Shown: in pieces, positions 3,825-34,437 of the stretch
How positions within the stretch are numbered: the first letter of the stretch is position 1
Layout of the letters: each line of letters begins with the position of its first letter
IMG/VR virus record: IMGVR_UViG_3300022751_000014
Coordinates: 1 to 37,523 of that record
Reading direction: 5' to 3' (one strand)
Origin: a virus
Length of the DNA: 37,523 bases
Translations under genes and position numbers: made by a program
Notes under the pieces: model-generated
Told to the model about the DNA's origin: nothing
Databases searched by the model: none
What the model saw: only the letters and a program-made list of their open reading frames with translations

Positions 3825-3849
3825 GTGCTATAATAACCCTAATACGGGC
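3825..3849 (+). promoter_or_regulatory. Tagged late promoter 1 (fibre genes)
   Basis: An extended -10, TGC TATAAT at 3826-3834, is followed after 7 nt by AATACGGGC ending at 3849, and the ATG lies at 3861. No good -35 is seen. ATACGGGC sits where transcription should start, so it is probably the first eight bases of the mRNA. The same arrangement occurs before 7704, 11817, 32299 and 36223. Confidence 0.8.
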
Positions 3850-3860
3850 ATAGGTTGATA

Positions 3861-5687
3861 ATGAAACCACAAATACCTGACGATCCTATTTCTCGAATAC
3901 AACAAAAAAGACAGGCACAGGCAGGTTTTGACGTTGATCAGTCTCGGACTGATTCTATTATCGACGCTGTGAAATCATCTGGCGGAGAGACCAAAGACGG
4001 TATTACTTCAGCTATGCATGACATACTTATGGCGACTCTCATTGGGAAAGACCCGAAGATAGCCGAAGTTGCGAAGAACCTTGCTGGGCTACTTGAGTCT
4101 ATTGATAAAGCATCAAAGAACGTCAAAAGCAGTAGCCTAGAGGTGTTACCAAGTGTTTACAAGTCGCTTGTCGACGCTATTGCTGAACTACCAGGGAAGC
4201 TTGCGGAAAGCGACAACACAGAAGTTCTTATACCTTATCTTGAGGGTATCAATAAGACGATTCAGGGCAAAAATACAAACCCTGTCGTCACGGTTAACAA
4301 CAAAGATGTGAAGCTCGACGCTAAAGAGGTTGTTGATGCGATTAAAGATCTTAAAAAAGTTCTGCAGAATGTTACTAAGCCTGAGAAAGAAGGTAAAGAA
4401 GCTGATCTGACGCCACTTGTTGATGCAGTGAACAAGGTGACGTTTGCTGTAAACCATCAGCAGTTCCCAGTATCAAATTACGTTCTTCCTTTCAGGGATG
4501 ATTCAGGCGCTGCGACACAAATAACAGCGGTTACTAGTTCAACCGATCCGACTAAGACAGGGCTCATCGCCCTCAATCCTGACGGTTCCAACATATCTGG
4601 CGGCGGTGGAGGTGGAGGAACGCAGTACGCGGAAGGAGTCACAACATCCCCGGCTACTGGTACTGTCTCCCTCGGGCGCTACAGTACGTCTGCGCCAGTG
4701 CTTACTAATGGACAGTTGAATGCTCCCCAGCTTGATGTAAATGGTAATACGAAGATTGTACCTGCGTCAGCAACACTTCCTGTGCAGCTTAACGCATCAC
4801 AGACTACAACAACCGGTTCAATCACCACGTCAACAACAACTATTACTGTGACCGATCTCGCAGGCGTTGGAGCAGTCACAGTAACCATTTTCGGAACGTA
4901 CGCAGGCGTTAACGTCACTTTTGAACAAAGTCTCGATGGCAGCACTTGGGCTAATGCAACGGCGGTTCCTACCACACTGGTGAACCCTACAGCTATCTCA
5001 GGTGCAACAGGTGTACTTACAACTAATAGCACTAATATATGGAATGTATCACCTCTTCTGGGGGTCGCTCAGTTCCGCGTTCGAGCAACTGCATTTGGTT
5101 CTGGTTCAGCTAGTGTTCGAATTGAACCGTCTGCTCAGTTTGTTCAACCTAACGTACTTGTGACTAATCCAACGGCTGCAAACCTAAACGCTACTGTTAC
5201 AGGTACTGTTACTGCTAACATCGGTACAGGTGGGACAGGTGCGACTTCTCTTGGTAAGGCAGAAGATGCTGTCCACGCTTCAGGAGATACTGGAGTTGCT
5301 GTGTGGGGTGTTGTCAACACAGGCGCAGCGACGAGCTTTGCTGCCAATGGAGATTATAGCCCACACGCTGTAGATGTACAGGGACGAAGGTATGTTACTA
5401 TGAAGGCTCCGGCCGCCACCTTGTCCAACGTCTCAGGTTCTGCATCGTCAGTCACTGTTTTAGCAGCTAATACAGGCCGTCTAGGCGCGACAGTCACAAA
5501 TGACTCATCAGCCCTGCTCTACCTTAAATTGGGTGCTACAGCCTCTACAACTAGTTACACAGTTGTGTTGGCGGGTAACGCATCTGCCCCCTTTGCATAT
5601 TATGAGTTACCGTTTGGGTACACTGGCATCATCGACGGCATTTGGAGCAGCGCAACTGGAACCGCCAGGGTGACGGAGTTAAGTTAG
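3861..5687 (+). CDS. Virion structural protein, helical N terminus and beta-rich C terminus
   Basis: A 608-residue protein. The ATG at 3861 is used rather than TTG 3855 because AGG lies just upstream within the tagged leader. Residues 1 to about 200 are charged and helical with many Lys/Glu, like an attachment stalk. A run of glycines near residue 250 marks a flexible hinge. The rest is Thr/Ser/Ala/Val-rich and beta-like, with repeated short segments such as TVTGTVTAN. The C-terminal domain ends with FAYYELPFGYTG, a pattern seen in phage baseplate and fibre proteins. It is the first gene after the glycosylation cassette and its many Ser/Thr residues make it a candidate acceptor. Exact virion location is inferred. 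Confidence 0.7.
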   Translation: MKPQIPDDPISRIQQKRQAQAGFDVDQSRTDSIIDAVKSSGGETKDGITSAMHDILMATLIGKDPKIAEVAKNLAGLLESIDKASKNVKSSSLEVLPSVYKSLVDAIAELPGKLAESDNTEVLIPYLEGINKTIQGKNTNPVVTVNNKDVKLDAKEVVDAIKDLKKVLQNVTKPEKEGKEADLTPLVDAVNKVTFAVNHQQFPVSNYVLPFRDDSGAATQITAVTSSTDPTKTGLIALNPDGSNISGGGGGGGTQYAEGVTTSPATGTVSLGRYSTSAPVLTNGQLNAPQLDVNGNTKIVPASATLPVQLNASQTTTTGSITTSTTTITVTDLAGVGAVTVTIFGTYAGVNVTFEQSLDGSTWANATAVPTTLVNPTAISGATGVLTTNSTNIWNVSPLLGVAQFRVRATAFGSGSASVRIEPSAQFVQPNVLVTNPTAANLNATVTGTVTANIGTGGTGATSLGKAEDAVHASGDTGVAVWGVVNTGAATSFAANGDYSPHAVDVQGRRYVTMKAPAATLSNVSGSASSVTVLAANTGRLGATVTNDSSALLYLKLGATASTTSYTVVLAGNASAPFAYYELPFGYTGIIDGIWSSATGTARVTELS

Positions 5688-7666: not shown

Positions 7667-7690
7667 TGTTATAATTAAATCAATACGGGC
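7667..7690 (+). promoter_or_regulatory. Tagged late promoter 2 (adaptor gene)
   Basis: TGT TATAAT ends at 7675, then 7 nt, then ATACGGGC at 7683-7690. The gene starts 21 nt after the first base of the tag, and CGGAGTG inside the leader can serve as ribosome-binding site. Confidence 0.8.
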
Positions 7691-7703
7691 ATCGGAGTGA
7701 CGA

Positions 7704-11780: not shown

Positions 11781-11804
11781 TGTTATAATCTAGTTAATAC
11801 GGGC
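11781..11804 (+). promoter_or_regulatory. Tagged late promoter 3 (ejection proteins)
   Basis: TGT TATAAT at 11784-11789, 7 nt, then ATACGGGC from 11797; the gene starts 20 nt after the first tag base. A weak TTGTAT lies 18 nt upstream of the -10 as possible -35. Confidence 0.8.
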
Positions 11805-11816
11805 ATCTGGGAATAT

Positions 11817-18184: not shown

Positions 18185-18211
18185 AGCTCGGCTAGATACC
18201 GAGCTTCTTTT
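18184..18211 (+). terminator. Rho-independent terminator of the late operon
   Basis: Stem AAGCTCGG / CCGAGCTT (18184-18191 with 18199-18206), loop of 7, then CTTTTATT. It overlaps the last late gene's stop codon. Read on the minus strand it would also end transcription of the small gene at 18256-18429, though without as good a T run. Confidence 0.88.
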
Positions 18212-18255
18212 ATTCCCTGATTCACAAGCAGTAGTGCGCCTAACGCACCCTCTAA

Positions 18256-18429
18256 TTATACTCCCAGAGCCGCTGGTGCGAACACTGACACAAATATAAC
18301 TACTAGCACTGCAAATATAGAGGATACTGCTATACGGCCTACTACGTTCTCCCAGAAGGTACTGAGCGTATAATGCATTACCGTAAATGCGGATGTAATT
18401 GTTAGTAGAACTGCTAAGATAATTGTCAT
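18256..18429 (-). CDS. Small minus-strand protein with two membrane helices
   Basis: A 57-residue open frame on the minus strand with a textbook ribosome-binding site, AAGGAG, five bases before ATG 18429. Residues about 2-18 (IILAVLLTITSAFTV) and 33-50 (IAVSSIFAVLVVIFVSVF) are membrane helices, joined by a short loop with Trp and charged residues. An extended -10 (TGC TATACT) lies 26 bases upstream on the same strand. It is one of few genes facing the other way. Possible roles are holin antagonist, superinfection exclusion or membrane stress; none can be chosen from sequence. Confidence 0.7.
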   Translation of the reverse strand: MTIILAVLLTITSAFTVMHYTLSTFWENVVGRIAVSSIFAVLVVIFVSVFAPAALGV

Positions 18430-18505: not shown

Positions 18506-18543
18506 TATATTACCACGTTAAAGGCAGAAATGAAGAAGGCACT
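18506..18543 (+). repeat. 38-bp gene-start repeat, copy 1
   Basis: Identical to 19734-19771. It holds the AAAGG ribosome-binding site, ATG and first four codons (M K K A) of the 18530 gene plus about 24 bases of leader. Confidence 0.95.
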
Positions 18544-19012: not shown

Positions 19013-19223
19013 TGATCAGTATATTGCTGGTGTATACATTGTCGGTGTAATTGCCGGAATTATAGGCTGGATCTATGCCATTGTTACTTGGGGCATTCTA
19101 GGGGTTATATTCGGATGGATATTTGGGTTATTGGTTGGGTTCATTTGTGGTATCCTATGGCCTCTTATAGTAGCTCTGGTGGTGTTGTCTGTTGTTTACT
19201 TAGTAGCTCTATCACGTAGTTGA
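19005..19223 (+). CDS. Small multi-helix membrane protein
   Basis: A 72-residue, almost entirely hydrophobic protein with two or three membrane helices (GVIAGIIGWIYAIVTWGILG, FGWIFGLLVGFICGIL, PLIVALVVLSVVYLVAL) and many glycines. It overlaps the preceding gene, so both membrane proteins are made together from the divergent promoter. A second holin, antiholin or superinfection-exclusion protein are all possible. Its last 28 bases overlap a possible minus-strand gene. Confidence 0.65.
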   Translation: MSSDQYIAGVYIVGVIAGIIGWIYAIVTWGILGVIFGWIFGLLVGFICGILWPLIVALVVLSVVYLVALSRS

Positions 19224-19336: not shown

Positions 19337-19355
19337 ACAGACCCCCTTCTCGCAG

Positions 19356-19514
19356 CTAGAGACCAGGAACAAACACGAACCTTCTACTAGTGTTATTTAA
19401 GACCTTTCCTCTTCCCAAGTACTCAGTAATAACAGCCGAACATTTGATGACATCGCATAGACCAGGTTGACGTTTAGGGGTCAATAAATCAGAGCCTGGG
19501 TTTAACGTCACCAT
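19356..19514 (-). CDS. Possible small minus-strand protein with paired cysteines
   Basis: A 52-residue minus-strand frame from ATG 19514. Its composition is protein-like (GLCDVIKCSAVITEYLGRG, NNTSRRFVFVPGL) and it has a CxxxxC pair, but there is no clear Shine-Dalgarno sequence. A 14-codon GTG frame with a protein-like start (VKVIIEFDGDV) overlaps the beginning in another frame. This may mean a leader peptide or a frameshifted gene. The region 19224-19593 holds nothing convincing on the plus strand. Confidence 0.4.
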   Translation of the reverse strand: MVTLNPGSDLLTPKRQPGLCDVIKCSAVITEYLGRGKVLNNTSRRFVFVPGL

Positions 19515-19593
19515 CAAATTCAATTATTACTTTCACTTCGTTTTTCGTCCTATAAGGGAGGGGCTACGGCAATAACAGGGGTTGTAAAAGTAT

Positions 19594-19621
19594 TTGCAAT
19601 TTGGTGTCTATCTGATAGAAT
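19594..19621 (+). promoter_or_regulatory. Promoter of a short plus-strand RNA
   Basis: TTGCAA, 16-nt spacer, TAGAAT (19616-19621) preceded by TGA (extended -10). A terminator begins only 25 nt after the -10. TTGCAA is self-complementary and might serve a divergent minus-strand promoter too, but no good minus -10 is seen at the right distance. Confidence 0.6.
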
Positions 19622-19626
19622 AAAAG

Positions 19627-19672
19627 AAGACAAAAACATAGCCTTCCCCGCACGCAAATGCGGGGTTCTTTA
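19627..19672 (+). ncRNA. Candidate short terminated RNA (about 45 nt)
   Basis: A promoter ending at 19621 is followed directly by the terminator stem CCCCGCA / TGCGGGG (19646-19652 with 19659-19665, loop CGCAAA) and TTCTTTAT. No open frame fits between. The 5' arm AGACAAAAACA..GCCTT is repeated with two changes at 19707-19724. This may be a small regulatory or decoy RNA, or simply an attenuated leader. Confidence 0.5.
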
Positions 19673-19733
19673 TATCCCAAATTACCCCCTAAAACTGCTT
19701 GTGTTAGACAAAAACACTGCCTTAGGTTATGTT

Positions 19734-19771
19734 TATATTACCACGTTAAAGGCAGAAATGAAGAAGGCACT
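19734..19771 (+). repeat. 38-bp gene-start repeat, copy 2
   Basis: Perfect copy of 18506-18543, including the AAAGG site and ATG. Its own promoter candidate is TAGACA-17-TATGTT at 19705-19733. Confidence 0.95.
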
Positions 19772-19886
19772 TTTTCTAATTCTACAATCTCTTGTGGTGA
19801 GAGTTGTATATTCTACAATATTTGCAGCCCATATTAAAAGGTTGTATTATTGTATTTTACGAATATATAAAATACCCGCCAATTAA
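19758..19886 (+). CDS. Short protein from the duplicated gene start, possibly a remnant
   Basis: The second copy of the gene start runs into a different sequence and encodes 42 residues: MKKALFLILQSLVVRVVYSTIFAA then a basic, Tyr-rich end. The first half is hydrophobic like a signal anchor. After the shared 38 bp there is no similarity to the 18530 gene. It could be a decayed duplicate, a small membrane peptide, or a leader whose translation start is conserved for regulation. Confidence 0.4.
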   Translation: MKKALFLILQSLVVRVVYSTIFAAHIKRLYYCILRIYKIPAN

Positions 19887-19958
19887 GACGGGTTCATTTA
19901 CGGTCAACCTAGAATTTTCATAGGTCAACGACAGGTGCAAAAACTGGCTAACAGTTTC
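19866..19958 (-). ncRNA. Candidate minus-strand small RNA 1 (about 90 nt)
   Basis: A minus-strand extended -10, TGG TATAAT (complement of 19965-19973), is followed by AAACTG-TTAGC-CAGTTT, a six-bp hairpin. The 3' end is a terminator-like hairpin ACCCGTC / GGCGGGT with tail ATTTTATATATT (complement of 19874-19893). One pair of that stem is a G-U wobble only in minus-strand RNA and a mismatch on the plus strand. GTTGACC occurs twice 22 bases apart inside. No plausible open frame was found. Confidence 0.5.
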
Positions 19959-19977
19959 GTCCGTATTATACCACTAA

Positions 19978-20120
19978 GTGAAAAGACCCCCTAGACAGAA
20001 TAGTGCTCCAATAGGGGTCTTACTAAGATTGCAGCAAACAATGAGAGAAGTTCGCTGCTATGATATACCAAAGGTACGTGCCAGACCGTGATCCAGTTCA
20101 ATACCGGTAATCTGGTAATG
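19978..20120 (-). ncRNA. Candidate minus-strand small RNA 2 (about 140 nt)
   Basis: It has the best promoter of the cluster: TTGCCA (complement of 20149-20154), 17-nt spacer, TATATT (complement of 20126-20131) with TGA before it. Predicted hairpins are a CCAGA / TCTGG stem reinforced by CCG / CGG, then GCAGCGAAC / GTTTGCTGC (9 bp with one G-U that pairs only on this strand). The 3' end is a terminator AAGACCCC / GGGGTCTT followed by TTTC, with a long 23-nt loop. No open frame with a start signal was found. It resembles an independently transcribed structured RNA. Confidence 0.6.
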
Positions 20121-20157
20121 CTTAGAATATATCACGTTATATAGGTTATGGCAACAT

Positions 20158-20215
20158 AAAACAAAGTCCGTACTGGACGGACTAAGGGCTGCGTCCACAA
20201 CATGGTAGTACAGTG
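20158..20215 (-). ncRNA. Candidate minus-strand small RNA 3 (about 50 nt)
   Basis: A compact terminator AGTCCGT-CCAGT-ACGGACT followed by TTGTTTTA (complement of 20165-20183) ends a short minus-strand stretch. The best start is an extended -10 TGC TATGCT or TGC TATAGG near 20215-20230 without a good -35, so it may instead be the 3' end of read-through from RNA 4. Confidence 0.4.
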
Positions 20216-20227
20216 CCTATAGCATAG

Positions 20228-20318
20228 CACAAAAGAAAACGCCCCCGTGGAAGAATTGATACAACAAGTGTAAGATTCAGGGGCGTTTGGCTATATCTTA
20301 CCACCTATAAGGTAATAA
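20228..20318 (-). ncRNA. Candidate minus-strand small RNA 4 (about 90 nt)
   Basis: Promoter candidate on the minus strand: TAGCAA (complement of 20348-20353), 17 nt, TATAAG (complement of 20325-20330). The first hairpin is CTTATTACC / GGTGGTAAG with a 5-nt loop; its two wobble pairs form only in minus-strand RNA. The 3' hairpin is AAACGCCCC / GGGGCGTTT with an unusually long 34-nt loop, followed by TCTTTT. No open frame of note was found. Confidence 0.5.
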
Positions 20319-20368
20319 GGCAAGCTTATACAACACACAAGGAATACTTGCTAGTTCTCTAAAACGTA

Positions 20369-20397
20369 TTGCAAAACCACTACCACTGTGCTATTAT
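20369..20397 (+). promoter_or_regulatory. Early promoter E1
   Basis: TTGCAA, 17-nt spacer, TATTAT with TGC before it. The spacer contains ACCACTACCAC and the leader GGAAGGATTGAATAC ends at the ATG. Both the spacer and the leader are shared with promoters at 24003 and 25859, so they are probably a common regulatory signature. Confidence 0.85.
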
Positions 20398-20430
20398 AGA
20401 GGTAAATCAATTTTAGGAAGGATTGAATAC

Positions 20431-21033
20431 ATGAGCGAAACAGTTAAAGTGCCGCAGCAAAAAGTTATGCAGGCAATTCAAAACGTACAGCAACAAGCTG
20501 AATATATTAAGCGTGAATCAGACGGACAAGTAGGACAAGGCAAGTTTAAGTATGCCAACCTCACAAGCACATGGGAAGCCGTTAAACAGCTATTAAAGGA
20601 AAACAACCTAGTCGTCTACCAAACCCCTACAAACGGCTCTAGTGGTCTTCAAGGCAATATGTTTAAGACAACCATCTTTCATATTGAAAGCGGTGAGTCC
20701 GTCACGGAAGAAATGCCAATGGTACTCACACGGCAAGACCCACAGGCGCTGGGAGCCGCAATCACATTTTATCGACGTTACATGCTTACCTCGATGCTAG
20801 GACTCATCCCAGACGATGACAACGACGCTAGAGAGCAACGACTTGCCACAGCACAACAGAAACTACAGATTGTTGGCGCGGTTAAACTCACTTTTGACAA
20901 TAAGGGCGAAGAATGGCGACCGGAACAAATCAACAAGACCATTGAAGATATTATCGGTAAGCACCCGAGTCAGATTCGCGAAGAAGAAGCTGACAATGTT
21001 GTCAACTTGATTAGGGCTTATAAGGCAGAGTAA
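20431..21033 (+). CDS. erf: ERF-family single-strand annealing protein
   Basis: A 200-residue protein with GGAAGG upstream. The core is typical of the ERF recombinase superfamily: KYANLTSTWEAVKQLLKENNLVVYQ, FHIESGESVTEE, then the diagnostic DPQALGAAITFYRRYMLTSMLGLIPDDDNDA near residues 105-137. ERF proteins anneal complementary single strands and support phage recombination, genome circularisation and repair. The last 60 residues are more variable, as usual. It is the first gene of the early operon. No exonuclease partner is recognised nearby. Confidence 0.92.
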   Translation: MSETVKVPQQKVMQAIQNVQQQAEYIKRESDGQVGQGKFKYANLTSTWEAVKQLLKENNLVVYQTPTNGSSGLQGNMFKTTIFHIESGESVTEEMPMVLTRQDPQALGAAITFYRRYMLTSMLGLIPDDDNDAREQRLATAQQKLQIVGAVKLTFDNKGEEWRPEQINKTIEDIIGKHPSQIREEEADNVVNLIRAYKAE

Positions 21034-23417: not shown

Positions 23418-24006
23418 CCAGGCAAAAGGTGGCTGCAAAGTCTGCAAATCTATGGAGCATACAGCGGTCTATCATAACCGTAAGCATATTAAACGTAGTC
23501 TGATCAGCTATCCCAGAATATATACGATAGATCTGAGTAAGAGGGAAGATAAGAAGCCTCGTAAGAAACGAACAGACAGAGCTAAAGCAAAGGATGCCGC
23601 TTGGGCTAGCTTTTCACGCTACATACGCTTGAGGGACTCTCTAGCAACCACAGGGACTATAGTTGCTTGTGTCTGTATAACTTGTAATGAGCGTGGGGAT
23701 AGTGAACCTAAGCCTTATGCAAAGATTCAAGCCGGTCACGCGATTGGTGGACGAAAAAGCTCGATCCTATTTAATGAAGAAGTGACGAATGGACAATGCG
23801 ATTATTGTAACGCTCAAGGTAGATTTGGTCTCAGCGGAGATTACGGAAACTATGCCGCAGCCCTTATAAAAAAGCATGGGTTAGAACATTACCAAGAGTT
23901 ACAGGCACTTGCAAGAACAACTGTACAATATAAAACACATGATTTTGTTGAAATTAAACAGAGGTACGACGAGAAATTGGCGGCTTTACTAGCATTAGCA
24001 CCTTGA
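23410..24006 (+). CDS. ninG: NinG/Rap-like recombination protein
   Basis: A 198-residue protein matching the NinG layout. It has a cysteine/histidine N terminus (CKVC..MEH), a basic helix (RTDRAKAKDAAWASFSRYIRLRD) and the zinc-type pair CITC near residue 93. Then come QAGHAIGGR, NGQCDYCN and a C-terminal helical part (YAAALIKKHGLEHYQELQ). In lambda, NinG (Rap) is a structure-specific nuclease that increases recombination. With ERF it forms the recombination set of this phage. It is the last gene before the next early promoter. Confidence 0.85.
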   Translation: MVSQAKGGCKVCKSMEHTAVYHNRKHIKRSLISYPRIYTIDLSKREDKKPRKKRTDRAKAKDAAWASFSRYIRLRDSLATTGTIVACVCITCNERGDSEPKPYAKIQAGHAIGGRKSSILFNEEVTNGQCDYCNAQGRFGLSGDYGNYAAALIKKHGLEHYQELQALARTTVQYKTHDFVEIKQRYDEKLAALLALAP

Positions 24007-24031
24007 CTTAACCATGACCATGTGCTACAAT
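24003..24031 (+). promoter_or_regulatory. Early promoter E3
   Basis: TTGACT, 17-nt spacer, TACAAT with TGC before it. The spacer (AACCATGACCATGTGC) matches E1 and E2 in pattern, and GGAAGGATTGATAC follows at 24049. Unlike E1 and E2, no start codon follows this leader; the first good gene starts over 200 nt later. Confidence 0.8.
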
Positions 24032-24037
24032 GAATTT

Positions 24038-24253
24038 ATCAATCAAACGGAAGGATTGATACAGAACCAGGGCGAGATGCAGACTCTCGGGACATACGGT
24101 AAAAGTCACCCCACAACGGTTCACGAATTAACAAACAAATCAACGGCTCCTACCTGGAGAACCAATACAGTAAGATGTGAAACCCATCTCAAGCCCTCCT
24201 AAGCAAAATGTCATCAAGGTCTCTGGGTAAAAGCCGTTGAAGAAAAGAGTAAT
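24038..24253 (+). ncRNA. Long structured leader, or small RNA
   Basis: No convincing gene lies between E3 and ATG 24254. Helices seen are CGAGA / TCTCG around 24072-24088, a GGTTC / GAACC pair, AGATG / CATCT near 24175-24189, and a perfect long-range stem CAACGGCT / AGCCGTTG (24141-24148 with 24232-24239). That stem closes a 99-nt domain ending 14 bases before the gene start. It may control the frameshifted lysozyme gene or belong to the large RNA downstream. A 42-codon frame from ATG 24077 exists but looks weak. Confidence 0.5.
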
Positions 24254-25858: not shown

Positions 25859-25887
25859 TTTACAAAACCACTACCACGTGCTACACT
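25859..25887 (+). promoter_or_regulatory. Early promoter E2
   Basis: TTTACA, 17-nt spacer, TACACT with TGC before it. The spacer ACCACTACCAC is the same as in E1, and GGAAGGATTGAATATG gives the start of the next gene. Confidence 0.82.
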
Positions 25888-25919
25888 AAGGGTACATTTA
25901 AATCACGGAAGGATTGAAT

Positions 25920-26039
25920 ATGAACATCGAAGAACAGAAAAAAGGACTAAAACGAATCTTAGCTAAGGCACAGGCTGAAAAAGAAGCGAAGGCCAACGGT
26001 CTTTGGGACTACCGTACCGGAAAGATTGTGGAGGCGTAG
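25920..26039 (+). CDS. Small early protein, first gene of the E2 operon
   Basis: A 39-residue protein whose start is fixed by the GGAAGG leader shared with E1. It is a Lys/Glu/Ala-rich helix (EEQKKGLKRILAKAQAEKEAKANG) followed by LWDYRTGKIVEA. No family is recognised. Its stop overlaps the ribosome-binding region of the next gene. Confidence 0.65.
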   Translation: MNIEEQKKGLKRILAKAQAEKEAKANGLWDYRTGKIVEA

Positions 26040-34375: not shown

Positions 34376-34437
34376 AATAGTAGCTGGAATATTATTTAAT
34401 ACTAGCCCGTATTAAACCAGCTACTATTCGGGCTAGT
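34376..34437 (+). promoter_or_regulatory. Intergenic pseudoknot carrying the antisense of the late tag
   Basis: Stem A is AATAGTAGCTGG / CCAGCTACTATT (34376-34387 with 34417-34428). Stem B is ACTAGCCCG / CGGGCTAGT (34401-34409 with 34429-34437). The 5' strand of B lies in the loop of A and its 3' strand abuts A, so both can form together as an H-type pseudoknot with 21 stacked pairs. A small hairpin TTAATAC / GTATTAA competes inside the loop. GCCCGTATTA (34405-34414) is the exact complement of the late tag TAATACGGGC. Confidence 0.75.

Follow-up and report, generated by a model that had tools for sequence, protein, structure and literature searches.

A minus-strand cluster of predicted small RNAs between the late and early genes of an uncultured phage, and a probable antisense RNA to its early leaders

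The DNA analysed here (the window) is the whole of the virus record IMGVR_UViG_3300022751_000014, a stretch of 37,523 nucleotides (37.5 kb). Since the record carries a 127-nt terminal repeat, it is probably a complete circular assembly. Of the structural and packaging genes, those for the small and large terminase, the portal, the major head protein, an internal virion protein and an endolysin were recognised, and the early region encodes an Erf annealing protein at 20431 and NinG. The late genes end at 19223 and the first early gene, that of Erf, starts at 20431, with the RNA cluster described below lying between them. No integrase, repressor or other recognisable lysogeny gene was found among the reading frames tested in the genome, no tRNA or tmRNA was detected with ARAGORN, and the 72-aa protein at the end of the late operon had no detectable relatives in viral contigs. 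The search among named phages matched no nucleotide relatives. Relatives of the portal protein were found on 42 viral contigs and on six contigs from bacterial metagenome-assembled genomes, three of which, including the closest full-length one (45%), are labelled Candidatus Saccharibacteria. On the basis of these portal relatives, the host of the phage is probably a member of the Saccharibacteria.

The initial annotation had described four terminator-like hairpins within 450 bp on the minus strand of the gene-free stretch, and all four are present, each followed by a U-rich tail:

19893-19874, minus strand: hairpin H1, terminator-like
20021-19983, minus strand: hairpin H2, terminator-like
20183-20165, minus strand: hairpin H3, terminator-like
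20288-20237, minus strand: hairpin H4, terminator-like

Three further minus-strand stems (19929-19903, 20058-20031 and 20115-20081) lie between them. As had been noted from the reading frames, no plausible protein gene accounts for the stretch, which holds only frames of a size expected by chance. No Rfam family reached the curated gathering score anywhere in the window, and the best match in the region at a permissive threshold was to an unrelated sRNA family (E 0.08).

To fold the minus strand, a segment of 453 nt was used, which gave -141.0 kcal/mol (z -4.78, with none of 100 shuffles as good), compared with -119.8 kcal/mol (z -2.99) for the plus strand of the same segment. The difference of -21.2 kcal/mol, which was reached by 1 of 200 shuffles, has its source in G-U pairs. 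Wobble pairs that exist only on the minus strand had been reported for three hairpins, and these proved to be H1, H2 and H4, in which G-U pairs correspond to A-C on the plus strand. Minus-only G-U pairs are also found in the stems 19903-19929, 20031-20058 and 20081-20115, and H3 has none. A scan of the 37.5 kb for stems of at least 8 pairs followed by a T tail returned 20 minus-strand hairpins, three of them inside the 450-bp stretch, where simple arithmetic gives an expectation of about 0.2.

Extended -10 promoters had been claimed ahead of at least three of the hairpins. We found four such sites, one of them weak, ahead of four units, so that promoter, structured body and terminator are aligned four times and predict the following small RNAs:

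20295..20323, minus strand: putative promoter of RNA d by sequence match, TGGTAAGAT (TAAGAT preceded by TGG; 20303-20295), with TTGCCT at 17 nt
20230..20289 (about), minus strand: RNA d, predicted small RNA with a rod-like hairpin and terminator (stem 20288-20237, 11 pairs, tail TCTTTTGT; fold z -3.68), candidate antisense RNA to early leaders
20229-20221, minus strand: weak extended -10 of RNA c, TGCTATGCT
20158..20214, minus strand: RNA c, predicted small RNA ending in the terminator-like H3 (fold z -1.1)
20126..20154, minus strand: putative promoter of RNA b, TGATATATT (TATATT with TG; 20134-20126), with TTGCCA at 17 nt; 10 of 12 consensus letters plus TG
19977..20119, minus strand: RNA b, predicted RNA of about 143 nt with stems 20115-20081 and 20058-20031 and the terminator-like H2 (fold z -3.19)
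19965..19973, minus strand: extended -10 of RNA a, TGGTATAAT, 6 of 6 letters plus TG
19866..19958, minus strand: RNA a, predicted RNA of about 93 nt with stem 19929-19903 and the terminator-like H1 found in the terminator scan (fold z -3.21)

Units a and b, with good structure and promoters, are predicted RNA genes. Unit c, the fold of which is not better than that of shuffles, is the weakest. Related phages were gathered through searches with the portal, Erf and endolysin proteins together with a DNA pattern, and they share the layout of the window, i.e., late genes, about 1.1 kb of gene-free DNA, and early genes. In seven of them this stretch contains 15 minus-strand extended -10 sites against 3.9 expected, a number that none of 300 shuffles reached, and only 2 plus-strand sites. 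The fourfold alignment and the recurrence of the promoter excess support the original proposal of a run of small structured RNAs on the minus strand.

A small plus-strand ORF (19757-19886) has its stop codon in the region of H1, and two-way terminators stand at the H1 position in the relatives G004, G005 and G023; H1 may therefore double as a plus-strand terminator. These two-way terminators, like the minus-strand terminator-like tails in general, would also be expected if the hairpins were insulators only, halting stray antisense transcription into the late genes and plus-strand transcription into the early genes. However, insulation needs neither a minus-strand promoter for each hairpin nor long loops, and it does not predict the match of a loop to the early leaders described below, and we regard it as quite improbable.

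The small ORF itself is preceded by a perfect 38-nt repeat (18506-18543 and 19734-19771), through which the leader and start of a 169-aa gene are copied ahead of the frame 19757-19886 (MKKALFLILQ...); a like copy is present in G005. Further upstream, a conserved noncoding element at 19340-19575, with the core GCATAGACCAGG..TGACGTT..ATCAGAGCCTGGGTTTA, is common to at least six related phages. Its outer helices covary, with compensatory changes at 7 pairs among six sequences, and the element, which is not in Rfam, has the appearance of a structured RNA belonging to this phage group. At 19593-19745, a plus-strand promoter is directly followed by an intrinsic terminator, and a word of 9-18 nt starting at the predicted transcription start recurs 46-72 nt further on, past the terminator. 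This arrangement is kept in all eight sequences compared (the window, G004, G005, G012, G001, G023, L103 and L102), with a word that varies by phage and mostly ACCCCC between its copies. Five of the eight have a minus-strand extended -10 beyond the second copy, and a minus-strand RNA starting there would form a duplex with the first copy.

The genome contains three exact copies of the 11-mer GGAAGGATTGA, each just after an early-type promoter (ACCAC or a similar sequence followed by TGTGCTA or GTGCTA) and 17-19 nt downstream of its -10 box. The early promoters, the words and the complementary site in RNA d are as follows:

20369..20397, plus strand: early promoter 1 (Erf operon), TTGCAA, 17 nt, TATTAT with TG
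20416..20426, plus strand: early-leader word 1, GGAAGGATTGA, containing the Shine-Dalgarno sequence of Erf (20431)
20431..21033, plus strand: gene of the Erf-type single-strand annealing protein (PHROG 155, Pfam ERF), the first early gene and the proposed main target of RNA d
24003..24031, plus strand: early promoter 2, TTGACT ... TACAAT with TG
24049..24059, plus strand: early-leader word 2, GGAAGGATTGA, where a 16-nt match to RNA d extends to 24064
25859..25887, plus strand: early promoter 3, TTTACA ... TACACT with TG
25907..25917, plus strand: early-leader word 3, GGAAGGATTGA, the Shine-Dalgarno sequence of a frame starting at 25921
20249..20264, minus strand: pairing site in the loop of RNA d, UUGUAUCAAUUCUUCC, complementary to the early leaders

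Along its full length, UUGUAUCAAUUCUUCC forms 16 pairs (2 G-U) with 24049-24064, and UCAAUUCUUCC in the same loop forms 11 pairs (1 G-U) with each of 20416-20426 and 25907-25917, which makes the pairing in the window short at these two leaders. The pairing scores of RNA d with early leaders 1, 2 and 3 were 24.5, 34.0 and 24.5, compared with at most 20.5 for the leaders of other promoters, and the match to leader 2 is the second-best of RNA d genome-wide. In the predicted fold, the pairing site is among the 3% most exposed stretches of that RNA. No target had been proposed in the initial annotation. A comparison with the leaders of the early and other promoters gave no convincing target for units a-c, the best candidate being the leader at 11781 for unit a (p 0.04, uncorrected).

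The start of the second early transcript (24049-24140) is conserved with G005 at about 4850-4915 (CAGAACCAGGGCGAGATGCAGACTCTC...). As the two differ by a frame-shifting indel, this transcript looks noncoding rather than like a gene. Three promoters within the late genes (3826-3852, 7667-7693 and 11781-11807) have a common leader word of their own, AATACGGGCAT, which is also found after promoters in G004 and G005 and perhaps plays the part of the early word for the late genes. Its complement, GCCCGTATTAA, is present in a hairpin at 34402-34436 that is conserved in the same two relatives.

The relatives have minus-strand hairpins with T tails at the equivalent position. The initial annotation had looked to conserved stems as a sign of function, and this expectation did not hold: stem sequences differ between the phages, so a test of stem conservation would fail. 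Conserved are instead the position, the anatomy, and, for the unit adjoining the early promoter, the ability to pair with early leaders of the same phage. The corresponding RNA of G012 finds its best and joint second-best genome-wide matches in two early leaders (21 and 14 nt), and a nearly identical word is present in a third. In G023, TAAAGGGGA is common to three early leaders and the RNA loop reads AAAUCCCCUUUA. A further phage, G014, was found later by searching solely for words common to promoter leaders. Three of its early leaders share GCTAATAGGA ahead of a Shine-Dalgarno sequence and ATG, and two of them carry TAAGCTAATAGGAAAGGT. The complement, UCCUAUUAGC, occurs a single time, in a gene-free stretch, in the loop of a plus-strand hairpin with a promoter and a T tail:

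18206-18275, plus strand, of G014 (IMGVR_UViG_3300025896_000012): predicted early-leader RNA, with promoter-like TTGAAT, 17 nt, TAAAAT adjoining the stem

The search with Erf for more relatives yielded only one further locus, a distant one.

The matching of loops and words was assessed in an eight-by-eight comparison of RNA units and leader sets, using a score for near-contiguous pairing. Duplex scoring of the whole minus-strand stretch with free bulges, in which 185 of 500 shuffles equalled the window, was too blunt and was replaced by this score. The RNA of each phage against its own leaders gave p values of 0.002 for the window, 0.002 for G012, 0.005 for G023, 0.002 for G014, 0.005 for G001, 0.07 for G002, 0.11 for G004 and 0.025 for G005, i.e., significant pairing in six of eight phages (Fisher p 1.8e-9). 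The regions, units and scoring were fixed after a first match had been seen by eye, and this is offset only in part by the controls with mismatched pairs and opposite strands and by the subsequent finding of G014. The 56 mismatched comparisons had a median p of 0.48, and 8 of them fell below 0.05 compared with 2.8 expected, perhaps because every word has a purine-rich Shine-Dalgarno sequence. Neither the opposite strands nor units a-c of the window were significant in the same test. In six of the seven RNAs folded, the pairing site is more exposed than the remaining RNA, the exception being G005.

If inverted repeats and the complement of purine-rich Shine-Dalgarno sequences had simply come together by chance out of many comparisons, unremarkable single pairings such as those of G004 and G002 would be expected. 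However, the combined p value over the eight phages, with mismatched comparisons near background, and the four phages in which several leaders have one word complementary to one loop make chance a very improbable explanation. A phage protein that binds GGAAGGATTGA-like sites, as DNA or RNA, at the early leaders could also be envisaged, with the copy in unit d as an extra site. The plus-strand copy at 20249, GGAAGAATTGA, does resemble the leader words, and the distance from word to early promoter is nearly constant, even where no start codon follows. Against such an operator, the copy is antisense within a minus-strand RNA in seven phages and is flipped in G014 together with a plus-strand RNA gene, as an antisense RNA would require and an operator copy would not. 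Moreover, the copy is flanked by a minus-strand promoter and a terminator tail and is mostly found in an exposed loop, and plus-strand promoters are nearly absent from the stretch. We therefore consider the operator unlikely. The locus is probably a cluster of minus-strand small RNA genes between the late and early genes, with RNA d as a trans-acting antisense RNA that would repress the early operons.

From these features we infer how an antisense RNA d would work. Transcription of this RNA of about 60 nt would start next to its own stem, the GC-rich outer part of which would serve as the terminator and also keep the UCAAUUCUUCC loop open. The pyrimidine-rich loop would then pair with GGAAGGATTGA in the three early leaders. 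At leaders 1 and 3, the duplex would cover the Shine-Dalgarno sequence. Pairing would mask the ribosome-binding site or make the leader accessible to RNase III, and early expression would be lowered, e.g., at the change from early to late genes or against a superinfecting sister phage. Leader 2 of the window, and apparently also the second leaders of G012 and G023, has no start codon immediately downstream, and a block of translation can therefore not be the full account there; pairing may cause cleavage, or leader 2 may titrate RNA d. Units a-c are predicted to be RNAs built like d.

At the sequence level, RNA d has the features of a trans-acting base-pairing sRNA, i.e., a putative promoter and intrinsic terminator of its own, a location apart from its targets, and short imperfect pairing to several 5' leaders. 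We rejected a cis-antisense RNA, since about 127 nt separate RNA d from the closest of its target words and 3.8 and 5.6 kb from the other two. The CI RNA of satellite phage P4 is likewise a short RNA that pairs with complementary words in early leaders, but its source is the leader of the very operon that it regulates, and its effect is premature termination. The C4 antisense RNA of phages P1 and P7 (PMC5320573), which serves immunity, is similar in being a phage RNA with loops that pair on phage mRNAs. However, C4 has three stem-loops and a conserved Rfam motif and is cut from a longer transcript by RNase P, whereas RNA d would be a free-standing gene on the opposite strand with one main hairpin and several early operons as targets. 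Although the complementarity of loop and target is present, RNA d matches no Rfam covariance model and was not assigned to the C4 family; a promoter adjoining its own stem would also argue against processing by RNase P. The sar RNA of P22 (PMC12197685), another small RNA of a phage, binds a phage message by base pairing and hinders translation initiation, but its target is the single message ant, while RNA d has its gene at a distance from its targets and is complementary to three leaders. RNAIII of Staphylococcus aureus (PMC2837412) docks an exposed C-rich hairpin loop on the Shine-Dalgarno sequences of several mRNAs; it is chromosomal, much longer and unrelated in sequence, and the analogy is one of mechanism only. 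As a single phage repressor that covers the translation starts of many early messages, RegA of T4 (PMC3014915) is comparable as well, although it is a protein and RNA d an RNA. A TIGR array (TIGR-Tas; PMC12045711) was rejected, as the genome has no match to the Nop domain PF01798, for which the controls were detected, and 19860-20330 contains no direct repeats, stem-loop variants without repeats being outside the scope of this comparison. In the open-access literature, we found no reports of such RNAs in phages of Saccharibacteria.

A wider reading, which we put forward as a doubtful possibility, is that the cycle of Saccharibacteria phages is largely governed by RNA. A block of small RNAs on the opposite strand would each read the address word of one set of operons, and the joint change of word and loop would prevent cross-regulation between related phages. 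RNA d would then act on the early operons, and other sets would be addressed by units a-c and by an antisense RNA of the repeat near 19700. The second early transcript, the word of which forms the longest duplex with RNA d within the window, would be a sponge.

To our knowledge, little is known about gene regulation in episymbiotic bacteria. As no recognisable lysogeny gene was found among the frames tested, an RNA that mutes the early operons would be the first candidate regulator of the cycle of this phage. The joint change of loop and leader words from one phage to the next suggests that each has an address of its own. It provides a simple rule by which RNAs of this kind could be sought in other uncultured phages, and a testable basis for immunity to superinfection in viruses whose hosts are episymbiotic bacteria.
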